Of a stretch of DNA of 59,542 nt, positions 393 to 59,542 are shown piece after piece. The translations under genes and the position numbers were made by a program. This DNA is from Phycisphaerales bacterium (lineage in GTDB: Bacteria; Planctomycetota; Phycisphaerae; Phycisphaerales; SM1A02): positions 1 through 59,542 of the forward strand of contig JAPKCC010000004.1 in NCBI GenBank assembly GCA_028823105.1, given 5' to 3'. Positions within the stretch are counted from its first letter, which is position 1. Each line of letters opens with the position of its first letter. A model generated the notes under the pieces. That model was given only the letters and a program-made list of their open reading frames with translations. It was not told the origin of the DNA and searched no databases.

Positions 393-2027
393 TCAGTGGC
401 GAAGTTTGTCGGGCACCGTGGCGTCGAGATCAACCATCCGCCCGTGGAGAATGAGTGGGCCGCTCCCCTCGATCCGGACCCGGACGATCGTTCCAAGCAA
501 CTGCTCGGCTCGGTCCCGAGTGGGGACGTTCAGCACGGTGATAAGGTCGCCCGGGGTCCTTCCGGAGATTTGGACGGCAAGACTGGACGGATGGTCACGA
601 GGTCCCTTTGCTGGAGCCAGCGCGGCGCCGAGCGAGATTCGTGGATCAGCCGCCGAGGGTGCGGCGTCGGAGATCGGGGAGCGATTGGTGATCCGTTCGA
701 CGAGGACATCGACCTCGCGACCCACCCACTCGGCATGCACTGCGGCACCGATCTCGGCCTGGAGGGCCAGAAGTTGGTTGTTCCGGAGCTTCTTCACATC
801 GAGTGGGACGTCATCCTCAAATCGATTGATGGCCGTGGTGCCGGGTCTCGGCGAGTACTTGAAGATGAAGTTGTTCTTGTACGGGACCCGGCGAAGGAGG
901 TCCTTCGTCAACTCGAAATCCTCGTCGGTCTCGGTGGGGAATCCGACGATGATGTCCCCTGCAATGGTCGCATCCGGGAGGACTTCGAGGACCCGATCCG
1001 TGAACTCAAGATACTCCTCGACGGTGTACCCGCGATTCATCAACTTGAGAATCCGATTCGAGCCGCTTTGCACCGGAACGTGGAGGTATCGGCAGATTCG
1101 TGGGCGAGAGGCCATCACCTCGAGCACGTCGTGTCCGAAGTCCTTCGGATAACTCGTCAGGAACCGAATTCTGGACAGCTCGGGGACCTCATCGTGGATT
1201 CTCGCGAGCAGTTTTGCGAAGGTGGTCAGATTCGGGTCGTCCACCGTCTCGTTCCGAAATGCGGACAGCCCGGGGCCGATCTGGGGTTGCTCTCGACCGT
1301 CCAGGGTCACGGCCATCCCATGGGTGTAGCGGTAGTGATTCACGGTCTGCCCGAGCAGGGTCACCTCGATGACGCCCGATGCTGCCAGGCGGCGGCATTC
1401 TTCGACGATCGAGTCAGGTGGGCGGTGTACCTCGGCTCCGCGGGTGTACGGAACGACGCAATACGTACAGAACTTGTTGCAGCCCCGCGTGATGCGGACG
1501 TAAGCGCTTCGAACGCCGCTGGTCGCCCGATCCGGATCGAAGGCTCGGGCGAGATCCAAGGTTTCGAGGTCGTCGGCGGAAGCAGAAAGGGCGGCGGATC
1601 GGCGACTCGTGTTGCCAGCCAGCGCCACGCGATCCTCGATATCGGCGGCCATTGGATGCTCGAGGGCGGCGGTCCGGACCACGTTGTCGATCAACATCGG
1701 AAGTTTGTCGAGTTCGCCGGGGCCGCACAGGAGATCGATCTGCGGATAGCGGCGAAGCATGTCGACGCCGTCTCGTTCCGCCATGCATCCCAGAACACCC
1801 AGAATCAGTTTTTCGCCAGCCTTCTTTCGCTTTCCGACGATCCCAACCCGGCTGTATGCCTTGCTCTCCGCATGCTCCCGCACGCTGCAGGTATTGAAGA
1901 GCAGGACGTCGGCGTCATCGGTCTCGGTGGTGAAGCTGTAACCGAGCGACTCGAGGTGACCTCGGACGAGCTCGCTGTCGAGTTCGTTCATCTGACATCC
2001 GAAGGTCTCGAGGTACACGGTCTTCAA
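393..2027 (-). CDS. miaB: tRNA-2-methylthio-N6-dimethylallyladenosine synthase
   Basis: MiaB is a radical-SAM methylthiotransferase that adds the 2-methylthio group to i6A37 in tRNAs reading UNN codons. The N-terminal UPF0004 domain has the three cysteines for the second iron-sulfur cluster at about C11 (FGCQ), C47 (NTCSV) and C81 (LGCMAE). The radical-SAM motif GCNKFCTYCVVPYTRG carries C183, C187 and C190. A TRAM-like RNA-binding segment ends the protein. At 544 residues it is longer than usual: an extra loop at about 125-170 and an insert inside the TRAM region explain the length. The start is a TTG at 2027, supported by AAGGA seven bases upstream and by the canonical N-terminus MKTVYLETFGCQMNELDSE. 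It is transcribed away from ftsW. Confidence 0.96.
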   Translation of the reverse strand: MKTVYLETFGCQMNELDSELVRGHLESLGYSFTTETDDADVLLFNTCSVREHAESKAYSRVGIVGKRKKAGEKLILGVLGCMAERDGVDMLRRYPQIDLLCGPGELDKLPMLIDNVVRTAALEHPMAADIEDRVALAGNTSRRSAALSASADDLETLDLARAFDPDRATSGVRSAYVRITRGCNKFCTYCVVPYTRGAEVHRPPDSIVEECRRLAASGVIEVTLLGQTVNHYRYTHGMAVTLDGREQPQIGPGLSAFRNETVDDPNLTTFAKLLARIHDEVPELSRIRFLTSYPKDFGHDVLEVMASRPRICRYLHVPVQSGSNRILKLMNRGYTVEEYLEFTDRVLEVLPDATIAGDIIVGFPTETDEDFELTKDLLRRVPYKNNFIFKYSPRPGTTAINRFEDDVPLDVKKLRNNQLLALQAEIGAAVHAEWVGREVDVLVERITNRSPISDAAPSAADPRISLGAALAPAKGPRDHPSSLAVQISGRTPGDLITVLNVPTRDRAEQLLGTIVRVRIEGSGPLILHGRMVDLDATVPDKLRH

Positions 2028-2201
2028 GGCTTGATCCTTCAGGCGGGTGGAAGAGGGTTGGCGCAGCGTGCAGGGTAGCAGGCTGTTCCGGCGAACCAGT
2101 CACAAACGATGTCCGAGACGGGGATGGGGCGTTATTCTCTCTGGAATGGACTGGCGCGGCCGTGGAAATTTCCTTCGACTACTCGGATCAGGAGCCAACC
2201 G

Positions 2202-2309
2202 ATGACGTTCACCACCGGGGAAATTCTGGCGTTGGTGGCGATCGGCTTCGTGCTTGCCGTGATTGTGGCCGCGTACATGATCATCTCCCGCAAGAAGGGC
2301 TGGATGTGA
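2202..2309 (+). CDS. Small single-pass membrane protein, 35 aa
   Basis: This 35-residue peptide starts MTFTTGEILALVAIGF and has one strongly hydrophobic helix (about residues 7-27) followed by a basic tail ending SRKKGWM. The ATG at 2202 has AGGAG eight bases upstream, which favours it over the in-frame ATG further upstream at 2109. It lies 59 bases before ftsW on the same strand, so the two are probably co-transcribed. A hairpin, ACCGCC-GGAAGT-GGCGGT at 2309-2326, follows the stop but has no T-tract. The function is unknown; a role with the division or cell-wall genes next to it is a guess from position. Confidence 0.6.
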   Translation: MTFTTGEILALVAIGFVLAVIVAAYMIISRKKGWM

Positions 2310-2368
2310 CCGCCGGAAGTGGCGGTTAAAAATCGCCCGGACGAGTCAATCCGGCCGATATCGAACGC

Positions 2369-3661
2369 ATGCGGGCCGGACAGATCGTCGCACTACTCGT
2401 GGTCACACTCTTCGTCTTCGGGGTGGTGATGGTCAATTCGGCGTCCCTTCGAAGGGTGGAGGATCCGGGAACCTCGATCCGGCTCGCCGGCCCCGACCAT
2501 TCCTACACCTTGAATGTCTCTGAATCGACCGGACTGGCGGGTCGTCGAGTGACTGAGACGCTGCTCGGGAAGCAGACCCAGTTTGCCGCCATCGCCATCA
2601 TCGCGCTGATCATCGGTGCCTTTGTTCCGGTCGAACGGCTCTCTCGAATGGGGGGTCTGGTTTCGCCGGTGCCGTGGATTCTGGCGGCCATCTTGTGTTC
2701 CCTGTTGCTGACGTTCACGCCGTTGGGCGTCACCATGCACGGTGCGCAGCGGTGGATCCGAATCGGGCCACTTCAATTTCAGCCAAGTGAGTTGGCCAAG
2801 TGGGGGCTTCCATTCATCGTGGCTTGGCACTGTGTTCGCCATGCCCCGAGCATGAAACGGTTCGCCACGGGACTTCTTCCTCCGCTCATCCTCTCCGGGC
2901 TTATTTGCGGGCTGATCGCCAAGGAGGACCTTGGAACGGCGGTCCTGATCATGTTCGTGACGGTCATGATGCTTCTGGTCGCGGGTGCTCGTTGGTGGCA
3001 TGTTGTCGGCCTGCTACCGGTCGGCTTGGTTGCGTTCGTCGGCCTCGTCCTCGCCGAGCCCTATCGCGTCCGACGGATCATGGCCTTTCTTGATCCTTTC
3101 GCGGATGCTCAGGACTCCGGGTATCAACTCGTCCAGTCTCTGGGATCGATCGTGACCGGAGGCGTCTCCGGCGTCGGGTTCGGAAACTCCCTGCAGAAGA
3201 ACGGCTATTTGCCGGAGACTCAGACGGATTTCATCTTCGCCATCATCTGTGAGGAACTTGGGACCTTCGGAGCCGCGATGCTGATCGCACTCTTCGTGGG
3301 ACTGGTGCTGATCGGTGCGCAGATCATTACGGGCCGGTCGAGCCCCGCCGCGATGGTGCCCGACGTTGCGGCGCGAGCCGTACCTCGGTTCAGCAGGATT
3401 CTGGGCTTCGGAATCATCCTGACGTTCGGTCTCCAGGCCGCCATCAACCTCGCCGTCGTCACCGGTCTGGCACCCACCAAGGGCATCGCGCTCCCGCTGG
3501 TGAGCCGAGGCGGCACCGGTTGGATCCTGACCGCACTCTCGCTGGGACTGCTCATCTCGATCGATCGGCGGGCCTGGCGAATCTCGAAGGAAGCCGGCCT
3601 CGACACCCTCGACACCAAAGAGTCTGCCAGCCCGTCCAGCTTCGAGACCGAACTCACATGA
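2369..3661 (+). CDS. ftsW: SEDS-family peptidoglycan polymerase, FtsW type
   Basis: FtsW is the lipid II glycosyltransferase of the divisome, a polytopic inner-membrane protein of the SEDS family. Family motifs seen here are GAQRWIRIGPLQFQPSELAKW and, in the acidic loop, PETQTDFIFAIICEELG, plus the late RGGTGW segment. The 430-residue length and many hydrophobic helices fit. The loop between helix 1 and helix 2 (about residues 25-70) is unusually long. I favour FtsW over RodA because the stop codon overlaps the start of murG by four bases (3658-3661), as in division and cell-wall clusters. RodA cannot be excluded by sequence alone. Confidence 0.9.
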   Translation: MRAGQIVALLVVTLFVFGVVMVNSASLRRVEDPGTSIRLAGPDHSYTLNVSESTGLAGRRVTETLLGKQTQFAAIAIIALIIGAFVPVERLSRMGGLVSPVPWILAAILCSLLLTFTPLGVTMHGAQRWIRIGPLQFQPSELAKWGLPFIVAWHCVRHAPSMKRFATGLLPPLILSGLICGLIAKEDLGTAVLIMFVTVMMLLVAGARWWHVVGLLPVGLVAFVGLVLAEPYRVRRIMAFLDPFADAQDSGYQLVQSLGSIVTGGVSGVGFGNSLQKNGYLPETQTDFIFAIICEELGTFGAAMLIALFVGLVLIGAQIITGRSSPAAMVPDVAARAVPRFSRILGFGIILTFGLQAAINLAVVTGLAPTKGIALPLVSRGGTGWILTALSLGLLISIDRRAWRISKEAGLDTLDTKESASPSSFETELT

Positions 3662-4776
3662 CGACAGCACCATCGAGCCCGGCGCGGATCATCTTTGCTG
3701 GGGGCGGGACCGGTGGCACCGTCGGCCCCGGGATCGCGATCGCGGAACGTCTTCTCGATTTAGAGCCTTCGCTCAAGATTCTCTTCGTGTGTTCGGATCG
3801 GGACGTCGATCGCCGGTTGCTGGACCCAGGTGGTTGGTCTTGCTGCCCAACCTCGGCTCGCAGTCCATCCTTTCATCCCCAGGCGGCCCTTCGATTTGCT
3901 CGCGGATGGATCGCGACGCGTCGCCAGGTTCGTGAGCTCCTCGCAGATCCGATCAGGACGCGGGTGGTGGCGCTCGGCGGGTTCGTGGCACCACCAGTCG
4001 TCCGAGAGGCGGTGCATCGGGGAGTGCCGGTGGATCTCCTGAATCTGGATCGCGTGGCAGGTCGGGCCAATCGGTGGATCGCCAGACGCGCAGATCACGT
4101 TCTGACCGCGGTTCCGACGGAACTCCCGAATTCCCTGCCGCCGACGGGCGTTCCATTGCGACGGTGCGTGCTCCCGGAAGGGTCGGCTGAGTCATGTCGG
4201 GTCAGTCTCGGATTGAAGCCTGATCGCCCGACCTTGCTGGTCACTGGTGCATCGCAAGGCGCGCAATCGATCGACTGGTTTTTGCGTGACTTAGTTCCAC
4301 GTCACCCGGAATGGTTCGATGGCTGGCAGATCCTCCATCTGGCAAGCGAGGACTCCGTACCACAGCTGCAAGAGGAATACTCTGTCAGCGGGATTCATGC
4401 GGTGGTACTCCCGTTCCTTGATCGAATGGGCGCCGCGTGGGGTGCCGCCGATCTCGCGATCACCCGGGGCGGTGCGAGTTCAATCGCCGAAGTGGCCGCC
4501 AGTCGGACTCCAGCCATCGTGTTGCCATATCCCTGGCATGAGGATGAGCACCAACTTCGAAACGCGACGGAACTTGAGCGGACCGGGGGGATTGTGGTCC
4601 GGCGTGATCCGGCGAAGGGGATTGCGGCGATCACGGCATTGGAGTCGAGACTGGCGATTCTCCTTCGATCCGCGGATGAACGAGCCAAGATGAAGGCATC
4701 ATTCCCAACCGTCGGCGCGGACGCGGCGGCCGCCATCGCCAGAATGCTTCTTCAGCCATCCGAAACATCGAACTGA
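3658..4776 (+). CDS. murG: UDP-GlcNAc:lipid I N-acetylglucosaminyltransferase
   Basis: MurG transfers GlcNAc to lipid I to make lipid II on the inner face of the membrane. Two GT-B half-domains are recognisable: the N-terminal glycine loop FAGGGTGGTVGPGIAIAE, the second loop TGASQGAQSIDWFLRD, and the donor-binding segment RGGASSIAEVAASRTPAIV followed by HEDEHQLRNA. Most MurG proteins have His after GGTGG; here it is Thr, which is unusual because that His is highly conserved. The ATG at 3658 overlaps the ftsW stop and gives 372 residues, a normal length. In-frame sequence upstream lies inside ftsW and is not part of the gene. Confidence 0.9.
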   Translation: MTTAPSSPARIIFAGGGTGGTVGPGIAIAERLLDLEPSLKILFVCSDRDVDRRLLDPGGWSCCPTSARSPSFHPQAALRFARGWIATRRQVRELLADPIRTRVVALGGFVAPPVVREAVHRGVPVDLLNLDRVAGRANRWIARRADHVLTAVPTELPNSLPPTGVPLRRCVLPEGSAESCRVSLGLKPDRPTLLVTGASQGAQSIDWFLRDLVPRHPEWFDGWQILHLASEDSVPQLQEEYSVSGIHAVVLPFLDRMGAAWGAADLAITRGGASSIAEVAASRTPAIVLPYPWHEDEHQLRNATELERTGGIVVRRDPAKGIAAITALESRLAILLRSADERAKMKASFPTVGADAAAAIARMLLQPSETSN

Positions 4777-4823
4777 CCGTCTGAGCTGGGCCTCGCCGTC
4801 TCGGTCTCAGTCTCGGAGCATCG

Positions 4824-4862
4824 AAAAAACAACCGCCCCGGCGTTCGTCGCCAGGGCGGTTG
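4824..4862 (-). terminator. Rho-independent terminator of the M42 peptidase gene
   Basis: On the minus strand a GC-rich hairpin (arms CAACCGCCC and GGGCGGTTG plus an inner GGCG/CGCC stem, loop of 5) is followed by six T residues. It lies 38 bases after the stop codon of the minus-strand gene ending at 4900. It may also limit read-through from murG, but on the plus strand the hairpin is not followed by a T-tract. Confidence 0.85.
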
Positions 4863-4899
4863 TGGTTGAATCAGACGCGAAAGAGACCACTCGACGTGA

Positions 4900-5973
4900 T
4901 CACTTCGCCTGATGGAGCCACGCGGCGAGGAGATCGACCGCGGACTGTGCGTCACTCTTCCTCATTGATTCCGTGACCGTATGGATATACCGAGTGCCGG
5001 CGGTGATGGCGATGCAGCGAGCGCCGTCCCCAGATCGCTGGATCGCGGCACCATCCTGGCCGCCGCGGCCCAGAATGCAGCGTTGGTGGGGGATTCGGTG
5101 CTTTCGCGCGACGGCGCAGAATTCATTGACGAGTCGGTAATCCGCGATCATCGAGGAGTCCTGGATCATCACCGCGGCGCCATCGCCCTGCTTCGTCACC
5201 CGCTCGGTGGTGGGGACGCCGGGGGTGTCGCAACTGAGCGTGACGTCGAGTCCGATGCCGTAGTCCGCGCCGACCCGGTTCGCAGCAATCCCCGCGCCCC
5301 GGAGTCCGACTTCTTCCTGAACCGTGAAGCCGACCACGATGTCGAGGGCGTGATTTCCGGCGGCGCCCTTTGCCTGGTCGAGTTTTCGAACCGCCTCGAT
5401 CGCGGTCCAGCAGGCGAATCGATTGTCGAGGGCTTTCGAGACCACGCTGTCGGGTTGATCGAGGAATGGTTCGTGCATCACCACGTAGTCACCGATTTTC
5501 ACCAGTTTCTGCACTTTCGCGGCGGGCATTCCGAGGTCGATGAAGAACTCCTCGACCCCGGGCACCTTGCTGCGTTCGGCGGGGCTGGAGATGTGGATGG
5601 GCTTCCCACCCGGATTCATGACGCCGATATGGTCGCCGGAATCCGTGCAGACGAGCACTCGGCGGGAGAACAGATTTCGGGGGTCGAAGCCGCCGGCGGC
5701 GTTGACCCAGAGGAAGCCGTGCTCATCCACGTGTCGAACATAGAACCCGATCTCGTCCATGTGGGCGGCGATCAGGACTGTCCCTGCCGACTTGCGTCCT
5801 CGCGTCTTTCGGGTCGCATTTCGACGGCAGATCAGCGAGCCGAGAGGGTCGACCTCCATCTCGTCGAAGAGTCCGTCAATCTCTTCTTCGATGGCCGCTC
5901 GAACCCGCTCCTCGCGACCGGGAATGCCGGGGATCTCACAGAGGCGTTTCAGAAGGTCGATGTTCATGGTCAA
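4900..5973 (-). CDS. M42-family metallo-aminopeptidase
   Basis: This 357-residue cytosolic protein belongs to the M42 family (glutamyl aminopeptidase / FrvX / TET-type), di-zinc exopeptidases that trim N-terminal residues and often form large tetrahedral assemblies. The ligand set is complete: H71 and D73 in HMDEIGF, bridging D183 in ALDNR, catalytic/ligand E220-E221 in VQEEVG, D243 in GLDV, and H331 in YIHTV. The length is normal. It stands alone, convergent with murG and divergent from the YgfZ-like gene. Substrate preference cannot be read from the sequence. Confidence 0.92.
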   Translation of the reverse strand: MTMNIDLLKRLCEIPGIPGREERVRAAIEEEIDGLFDEMEVDPLGSLICRRNATRKTRGRKSAGTVLIAAHMDEIGFYVRHVDEHGFLWVNAAGGFDPRNLFSRRVLVCTDSGDHIGVMNPGGKPIHISSPAERSKVPGVEEFFIDLGMPAAKVQKLVKIGDYVVMHEPFLDQPDSVVSKALDNRFACWTAIEAVRKLDQAKGAAGNHALDIVVGFTVQEEVGLRGAGIAANRVGADYGIGLDVTLSCDTPGVPTTERVTKQGDGAAVMIQDSSMIADYRLVNEFCAVARKHRIPHQRCILGRGGQDGAAIQRSGDGARCIAITAGTRYIHTVTESMRKSDAQSAVDLLAAWLHQAK

Positions 5974-57239: not shown

Positions 57240-59174
<1,935 letters not shown>

Positions 59175-59473
59175 GCCGATCTCTCGGAGGGTAGCCCTCG
59201 CTCCATATTGCCGGAAGCCTCTGGCAGCGCGGTGGTTTCAGGCCCTCCGCCTCGGTGCCAGAGACGACTCGCCGATCACCTTGGCGCTCCGACCCCATTC
59301 GCGAACATTGCCGCCGTTTCTGGTGTATCAACGGCTTTCGTCAGGGTATGGTTGATGACCTTCCCTGCAATTAAGTTCGTACCCTAGACCTCTTGTTGAG
59401 GCAGACTGACTGCTGAATAGGACTGTGAATAGGACTCCCTGGCCACGCACCCGCTCCCGAAAGGTATTCACGA
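59175..59473. other. Intergenic region before a possible RiPP precursor gene
   Basis: Two features stand out. Arms CTCTGGCA (59219-59226) and TGCCAGAG (59256-59263) form an inverted repeat with a 29-base spacer soon after mnmG. The 11-bp repeat TGAATAGGACT occurs at 59414-59424 and 59426-59436, about 38 bases before the ATG at 59474. I see no coding region and no clear T-tract terminator. Confidence 0.4.
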
Positions 59474-59542
59474 ATGACTGAACAGAAGAACCAACTCGCG
59501 TCCCTGTTTGCCGCCTGCTGGAAAGACGAAGCCCTGAAGGCT
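59474..59542 (+). CDS. Putative NHLP-type leader peptide, cut by the window edge
   Basis: The last 23 codons start MTEQKNQLASLFAACWKDEA and continue LKA off the edge. This matches the opening of nitrile-hydratase-like leader peptides (NHLP, TIGR03793), which are RiPP precursors, typically MTxxxxxxxxLxxxxWxDxxFKxRLLxDP. The Trp-Lys-Asp-Glu-Ala-Leu-Lys core is the best match. Nitrile hydratase alpha subunits and thiocyanate hydrolase share this start, so those are alternatives. Only a short stretch is visible, and the family call would need the next 60 codons. Confidence 0.5.
   Translation, partial: MTEQKNQLASLFAACWKDEALKA

Follow-up and report, generated by a model that had tools for sequence, protein, structure and literature searches.

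Known systems and the locus under study

Prochlorosins serve as a model for how combinatorial peptide chemistry occurs in nature. They belong to the Nif11 family and are modified by one promiscuous enzyme, ProcM, and nearby recombinases and transposases have been proposed to aid their diversity, as stated in passages of PMC10783134; their genes lie distant from their LanM, according to a section of PMC7268733, which also reports leaders of the nitrile-hydratase-like type (NHLP) in five class II precursor families. In Nostoc, NHLP genes stand beside LanM and show paralogous expansion, as described in part of PMC2887384. The string 'planctomyc' is absent from the main text of PMC2887384 and PMC7268733, and a limited literature search found no report of this NHLP-led system in Phycisphaerales or planctomycetes.

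The DNA analysed here (the window) is the entire contig C30 (59,542 bases) of a draft genome of a Phycisphaerales bacterium (G000; 3.35 Mb, 194 contigs). The best reading of the data is a prochlorosin-like system in which one enzyme serves many substrates and yields class II lanthipeptides, with NHLP replacing Nif11 leaders, in Phycisphaerales. Like the prochlorosin/ProcM system of Prochlorococcus and marine Synechococcus, as portrayed in passages of PMC10783134 and PMC7268733, it pairs a single and apparently promiscuous LanM with many precursors that lie mostly far away and share a conserved leader. Unlike in prochlorosins, the leader is NHLP instead of Nif11, the host is a planctomycete, and the copies have an upstream repeat in common as well as truncated relatives. 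The system resembles that of ProcM in its working, yet for want of a Nif11 leader it is not filed as prochlorosin. With the NHLP/LanM genes of Nostoc (Haft et al. 2010, PMC2887384) and families II 2, 13, 17, 25, and 29 (Walker et al. 2020, PMC7268733), as covered in sections of both papers, it has in common the NHLP leader, the GG, the LanM maturase, and paralogous expansion, whereas most copies here are unlinked to the one LanM and the lineage is Phycisphaerales. In short, NHLP leaders with LanM and dispersed one-enzyme prochlorosins were known already, and the variant proposed here is an NHLP-led dispersed system in Phycisphaerales.

A precursor start at the contig end

From the ATG at position 59474 to the window end at 59542 (plus strand), the frame is open throughout and spans 23 codons, with the translation MTEQKNQLASLFAACWKDEALKA. 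An earlier note, made from the letters alone, had read this frame as a possible NHLP-type RiPP precursor, and its 23 residues proved identical (23/23; 66/69 nt) to those that open a full-length NHLP precursor encoded on contig C160 of this genome. The note had also called for a search of the full protein with the leader model TIGR03793, for which the curated cut-off is 50.9 bits. The 23-residue fragment alone had no match at E <= 10 in NCBIfam and Pfam, TIGR03793 included, and is thus by itself insufficient to confirm the NHLP reading; the C160 homologue, on the other hand, scored 69.5 bits in the genome search and 70.2 bits when searched as a protein. Across the genome, TIGR03793 matched six places at E <= 10, four of them above the cut-off (C7, 71.9 bits; C160; C112, 68.1 bits; C76, 64.2 bits), while 5 of 14 control genomes had matches at E <= 10 and none of the 14 exceeded the cut-off.

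Beyond the shared residues, the C160 precursor continues to LSDEELSNAAGG-RTLAPYFC, with RTLAPYFC as its core. On TIGR03898, the model for type 2 lantibiotics, it is above the cut-off as well (29.5 bits against 23.5); the C7 precursor scored 21.6 bits, below that cut-off, and those on C76 and C112 had no match at E <= 0.001. The leader ends in AAGG in all four complete precursors of this genome and is followed by a short core, and Nif11 models were absent from their NCBIfam matches at E <= 0.001. NHLP leaders resemble the alpha subunit of nitrile hydratase, and the C160 homologue did reach 39.8 bits on TIGR01323; this score is, however, far under the cut-off of 249.85, and all four complete homologues end in GG and a short core. 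Nitrile hydratase alpha identity is hence already refuted for these homologues, and there is a negligible chance that the window frame opens a genuine alpha subunit of nitrile hydratase or thiocyanate hydrolase, or some unrelated protein. Judged by its identity to the C160 copy and by homologues that pass TIGR03793 and end in AAGG, the stretch 59474-59542 is recognized as opening a gene for an NHLP-type RiPP precursor, and the leader call holds. The gene probably encodes a small peptide that carries a long, removable leader and undergoes chemical cross-linking after its synthesis. In particular, it is likely that the window holds the start of a class II lanthipeptide precursor with an NHLP leader of ~81 residues ending in AAGG, served in trans by one LanM and an NHLM exporter.

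Upstream region of the precursor

On the chromosome, mnmG (gidA; 57240..59174, plus strand) borders the insertion on its left side, and a spacer of 299 bases separates the mnmG stop at 59174 from the ATG. A short stretch (59175..59241) leads from the mnmG stop to the first base common to other repeat copies, and the remainder (59242..59473, plus strand) is a dispersed 5' repeat upstream of the leader that is common to other leader copies and may hold a promoter. Homology among copies begins at 59242 relative to C76:9807 and at 59245 relative to the copy on C10, and extends through the leader start. The spacer with an 11-bp tandem repeat of period 12, described in the earlier note, was confirmed: TGAATAGGACT starts at 59414 and 59426 (two copies, 59414..59436). 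This 11-mer was present in six copies in six stretches scanned, once in each, and its 12-bp duplication was seen only in the window copy among the copies compared. A promoter within the spacer had been suggested as well; the spacer turned out to be a dispersed repeat, a scan of its 299 bases for sigma-70-like promoters returned no sites, and the promoter role stays a guess. Read by eye, a Shine-Dalgarno-like GAAAGG (59459..59464, plus strand) lies 9 nt before the ATG and is kept in six leader copies compared; it may serve as the ribosome-binding site.

Gene order beyond the window

At E <= 1e-5, the DNA at 59400-59542 has 13 further matches elsewhere in the genome, and the assembly therefore most likely broke in the repeat at the C30 end. 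Among eight relatives searched, mnmG was matched in seven (no match in G003). It is followed in G007 and G001 by tRNA-Thr on the opposite strand and then by a large gene, whose counterpart in the present genome lies on C76 and encodes ThuA and Laminin_G domains. G004 keeps this order (mnmG, tRNA-Thr, ThuA-domain gene), with a gene of 164 codons preceding the tRNA; G005 and G006 also carry the 164-codon gene and the tRNA. In G007, only some 70 bases lie between mnmG and the tRNA. In the present genome, C76 carries tRNA-Thr at 409-482 and the ThuA-domain gene at 710-4900, and homology to the unoccupied G007 locus ends at ~59178 on C30 and resumes at 410 on C76. Based on this gene order, C76 is placed after C30. 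C131, which begins in a leader tail with the core SQCPQMGM..., and C158, which begins in a leader fragment, were also considered as the continuation of C30 and were rejected, as gene order favours C76.

C76 opens in frame with LSNAAGG, then CVRGMAHEWEPGSCV, then a stop (bases 1-69), which is probably the tail of the window gene (the 23 codons at 59474..59542 being its head, cut by the contig end) or of the last gene in a short array. The C30 head and the C76 tail likely form a single gene, a join that rests on gene order and leaves room for an array in the gap; with a leader of 81 residues and a single gene, the gap between the contigs would amount to ~153 bp. The core of the window gene is likely CVRGMAHEWEPGSCV, although several precursors could fill the C30-C76 gap, and its sequence would allow one possible ring, with Ser13 to Cys1 as the sole non-adjacent choice. 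A strong terminator-like hairpin with a T run follows at C76:270-325 (-30.9 kcal/mol, z -4.67, 0/200 shuffles as good; the stretch was picked by eye).

The earlier note had placed the biosynthetic genes just past the window, which is not what the neighbouring contig holds: C76 carries the tRNA-Thr and ThuA-domain genes, LanM and the exporter are on C112 and C82, and the part between C30 and C76 is unsequenced. Of what an extension of the sequence was expected to bring, the probable LSNAAGG tail with its GG site was recovered via synteny, while no maturase or exporter gene was found within the sequenced ~0.77 kb of the mnmG/tRNA-Thr insertion. Moreover, leader DNA had no match at E <= 1e-3 in the five orthologous stretches of relatives (L070-L074). 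The NHLP copy between mnmG and tRNA-Thr is present in this species and absent from the relatives read, and most simply arose by insertion.

Dispersed repeat and truncated leader copies

Truncated leader ORFs of 19 codons ending in SGD were found at five places in the stretches of this genome that were read, and a variant on C10 lacks the stop; together, these leader starts are located at C160:6332, C103:9951, C188:22662, C76:9137, C158:1426, and C10:11572. Most of them carry the common upstream repeat, which is missing from the copy at C158:1426. Where the contig continues, a palindromic hairpin (GAACGCCGC...GCGGCGTTC) lies downstream of the truncated copies; it also occurs without the remaining repeat, e.g., at C76:10038, and may thus be a separate element. 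Further down C76, a second spacer copy leads into a leader start without ATG. These remnants would fit a decayed window copy, i.e., the relic of a broken array that gives no product. This explanation is improbable: by codon 17 the truncated frames have already diverged from the full leader, whereas the window frame continues as full leader (WKDEALKA) to its end, and at the start of C76 the AAGG tail, the core, and the stop are all intact, with the terminator-like hairpin after them.

A truncated leader follows full precursors in C76 and in three relatives (G003:C4, G006:C22, and G007:C47), and the common 5' region is found not only before full precursors but also at solo sites ending in a truncated leader and the palindromic hairpin. 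These truncated leaders and common repeats suggest that copies may have spread by recombination between repeats. A more specific version, in which precursors are spread by a repeat cassette whose 5' region (~230 bp plus the first ~15 codons) would let homologous recombination load, unload, and shuffle cores, is offered tentatively and is considered rather unlikely. In an empty-site comparison for the solo C10 copy, the flanks matched different contigs in 4/4 relatives searched (a synteny break).

LanM and the exporter

The genome has a single LANC_like match at E <= 0.01, and it belongs to a LanM of 1146 aa (read from the open frame) with DUF4135 and LANC_like domains and 521.3 bits on TIGR03897 (cut-off 304). 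Its gene (~C112:21999-25439) is divergent from that of the NHLP precursor detected with TIGR03793 at C112:21455-21778, with the core ALAQGSFDPKCNTSFAVASTCPNCAP. Leader matches lie on C7, C76, C112, C131, C160, and C30, and only that on C112 adjoins LanM; the link between the window copy and LanM would accordingly be in trans. The LanC-domain motifs WC.G and CCG are present in 10/10 LanM open frames from nine genomes (the below-cut-off match in G016 left out). According to PMC12328550, CCG is tied to low substrate specificity in ProcM/SyncM-type enzymes, and the motif is a likeness of the present LanMs to ProcM.

An NHLM-type exporter locus on C82 encodes HlyD, ABC1, ABC2, an outer-membrane channel, and a DUF7005 protein. 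HlyD is above its cut-off on TIGR03794 (159.7 bits, cut-off 156.2), and ABC1 (C39 peptidase and ATPase; 821.4 of 853.3 bits) and ABC2 (666.8 of 709.4 bits) are slightly under theirs. At E <= 1e-30, the NHLM ABC1 model matches 61/61 genomes and 14/14 controls, so that only high scores are informative; scores > 700 bits also occur in six relatives without leader or LanM above cut-off (G008, G024, G026, G027, G032, and G036). In two genomes (G005 and G035), precursors, ABC1, and LanM share one contig, and in two others (G013 and G020), the ABC1, DUF7005, and LanM genes form a single run. In general terms, the partners anticipated by the earlier note, a LanM and an NHLM-type exporter, are present in the genome.

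Expression, modification, cleavage, and export, like the union of head and tail in one gene, are predictions drawn from sequence. In the working proposed, the precursor would be expressed from scattered gene copies and its leader recognized in trans by the sole LanM of the genome (C112, with the ProcM-like CCG motif), which would dehydrate Ser/Thr of the core and close (methyl)lanthionine rings with Cys. Cleavage after GG would then fall to the C39 peptidase of the C82 NHLM exporter, and the product would leave through a three-part channel of HlyD, the ABC proteins, and the outer-membrane channel.

A different maturation route is conceivable, in which the YcaO/TfuA pair on C109 would install a thioamide or azole in the NHLP precursor and the HlyD/ABC proteins of the same operon would export it. 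This operon (L030:3-9449) comprises YcaO, TfuA, an HlyD of the NHLM type (166.6 bits against a cut-off of 156.2), an ABC1-like protein with a C39 domain, an ABC2-like protein, and an outer-membrane protein. According to PMC2887384, the classic role of NHLP leaders is in thiazole/oxazole (TOMM) substrates, and C109 begins inside or just before YcaO, which makes a precursor upstream of YcaO possible. The route is nevertheless very improbable, since TfuA occurs in 1/61 genomes (this one only) versus leaders above cut-off in 10/61, the available 9.5 kb of C109 (upstream side cut off) contain no leader match, and the ABC1-like and ABC2-like proteins have no PF00005 ATPase match at E <= 0.001. The NHLP/TOMM clusters with cyclodehydratase/YcaO (e.g., Pelotomaculum), in the portion of PMC2887384 that treats them, likewise have an NHLP leader and NHLM-type export genes; unlike in those clusters, the contig that carries the sole YcaO here has no leader matches, and a search of the other 60 genomes did not find the TfuA partner of this YcaO.

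As further features of C109, the C39 motif QPTECG is present, and the ATPase domains of both ABC proteins may be degenerate. Among 12 stretches compared, C109 has the highest GC content (0.644), and its tetranucleotide correlation (0.975) is inside the range of other contigs (0.947-0.986); misbinning is possible.

Other genes near the exporter and LanM loci

The DUF7005 protein of the C82 locus (L145:15188-16261) has counterparts in L076, L146/L203, L147, and L148, so that five genomes, from four genera, have DUF7005 at the exporter/LanM locus (by Pfam match in four and by alignment in the fifth). The proteins have an invariant HEF.H motif, then HDE, and may be zinc-protease-like or HEXXH-oxygenase-like, and hence possibly a leader protease or a tailoring enzyme. 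The structure model was poor (mean pLDDT 45.4), and a sequence search of the PDB returned 0 matches. In addition, a JmjC_2 (PF08007) gene stands beside the exporter/LanM locus in three genera (L145:4381-5682, L148:18091-19485, and L146:838-2286, all on the minus strand), and its product is possibly a tailoring hydroxylase. Proteins with a tandem double NHLP-like leader domain were also observed (G001:C320:10157-10705, G003:C15:35383-35931, and G005:C123:26703-27164); the one in G005 adjoins LanM and is without a GG core.

Conserved leaders and hypervariable cores

A profile built in this study gave 94 matches in the loci read, 57 of which span the whole leader, and 56 could be split into leader and core. 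Within the genus (41 precursors), median pairwise identity was 0.73 for leaders and 0.23 for cores, and in G013, with 13 precursors, core identity was 0.20, equal to that of shuffled cores. Leaders are thus conserved and cores hypervariable. Not every core varies freely, and two of the four complete cores of the present genome are closely matched in other species: the LanM-linked core on C112 has close counterparts in G001, G003, and G007, and the C7 core GGCGCGGTTNNCGYPHSILSLD has them in G001 and G003, with a variant in G006. Some other cores recur as well, e.g., VAVYVGG... in G001 and G003 and CIMTN.IMCLFPTLPYPGQP in G004 and G005. Cys is present in 39/56 complete cores, all 39 of which also have Ser or Thr; the other 17 lack Cys, making lanthionine impossible in those 17.

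Distribution over genomes

With leader and LanM both scored above cut-off, 9 of 61 genomes have both, one has the leader only, none has LanM only, and 51 have neither (Fisher p 5.8e-10, kinship uncorrected). The leader-only genome, G004, is 68% complete; matches below the cut-offs occur in G014 (leader) and in G016 (LanM-like). Leader matches occur in seven of the eight same-genus genomes (own included), with 5 to 14 each at E <= 0.001, and neither a leader match nor LanM was found in G002 of this genus. Two peptide patterns picked up 61 loci that encode sufficiently close relatives in a named genome collection; 58 of their titles name planctomycete groups, mostly Phycisphaerae/Phycisphaerales, and three say just bacterium. 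Several of these isolates (TMED and MED labels) are presumably marine. The gene family, the gene order, the presence of the enzymes, and their co-occurrence are established here.

Implications

A separate lineage that follows the same logic with another leader family would be an independent test of how and why many precursors came to share one enzyme. The mnmG/tRNA-Thr locus, unoccupied in relatives, records the gain of one precursor, and the common repeats are a concrete, testable route for precursor spread. Furthermore, the genus offers a library of cores that is ready for use, its LanMs are candidate tolerant catalysts, and cassette spread, if true, would be a natural diversifying system for a one-enzyme lanthipeptide library.
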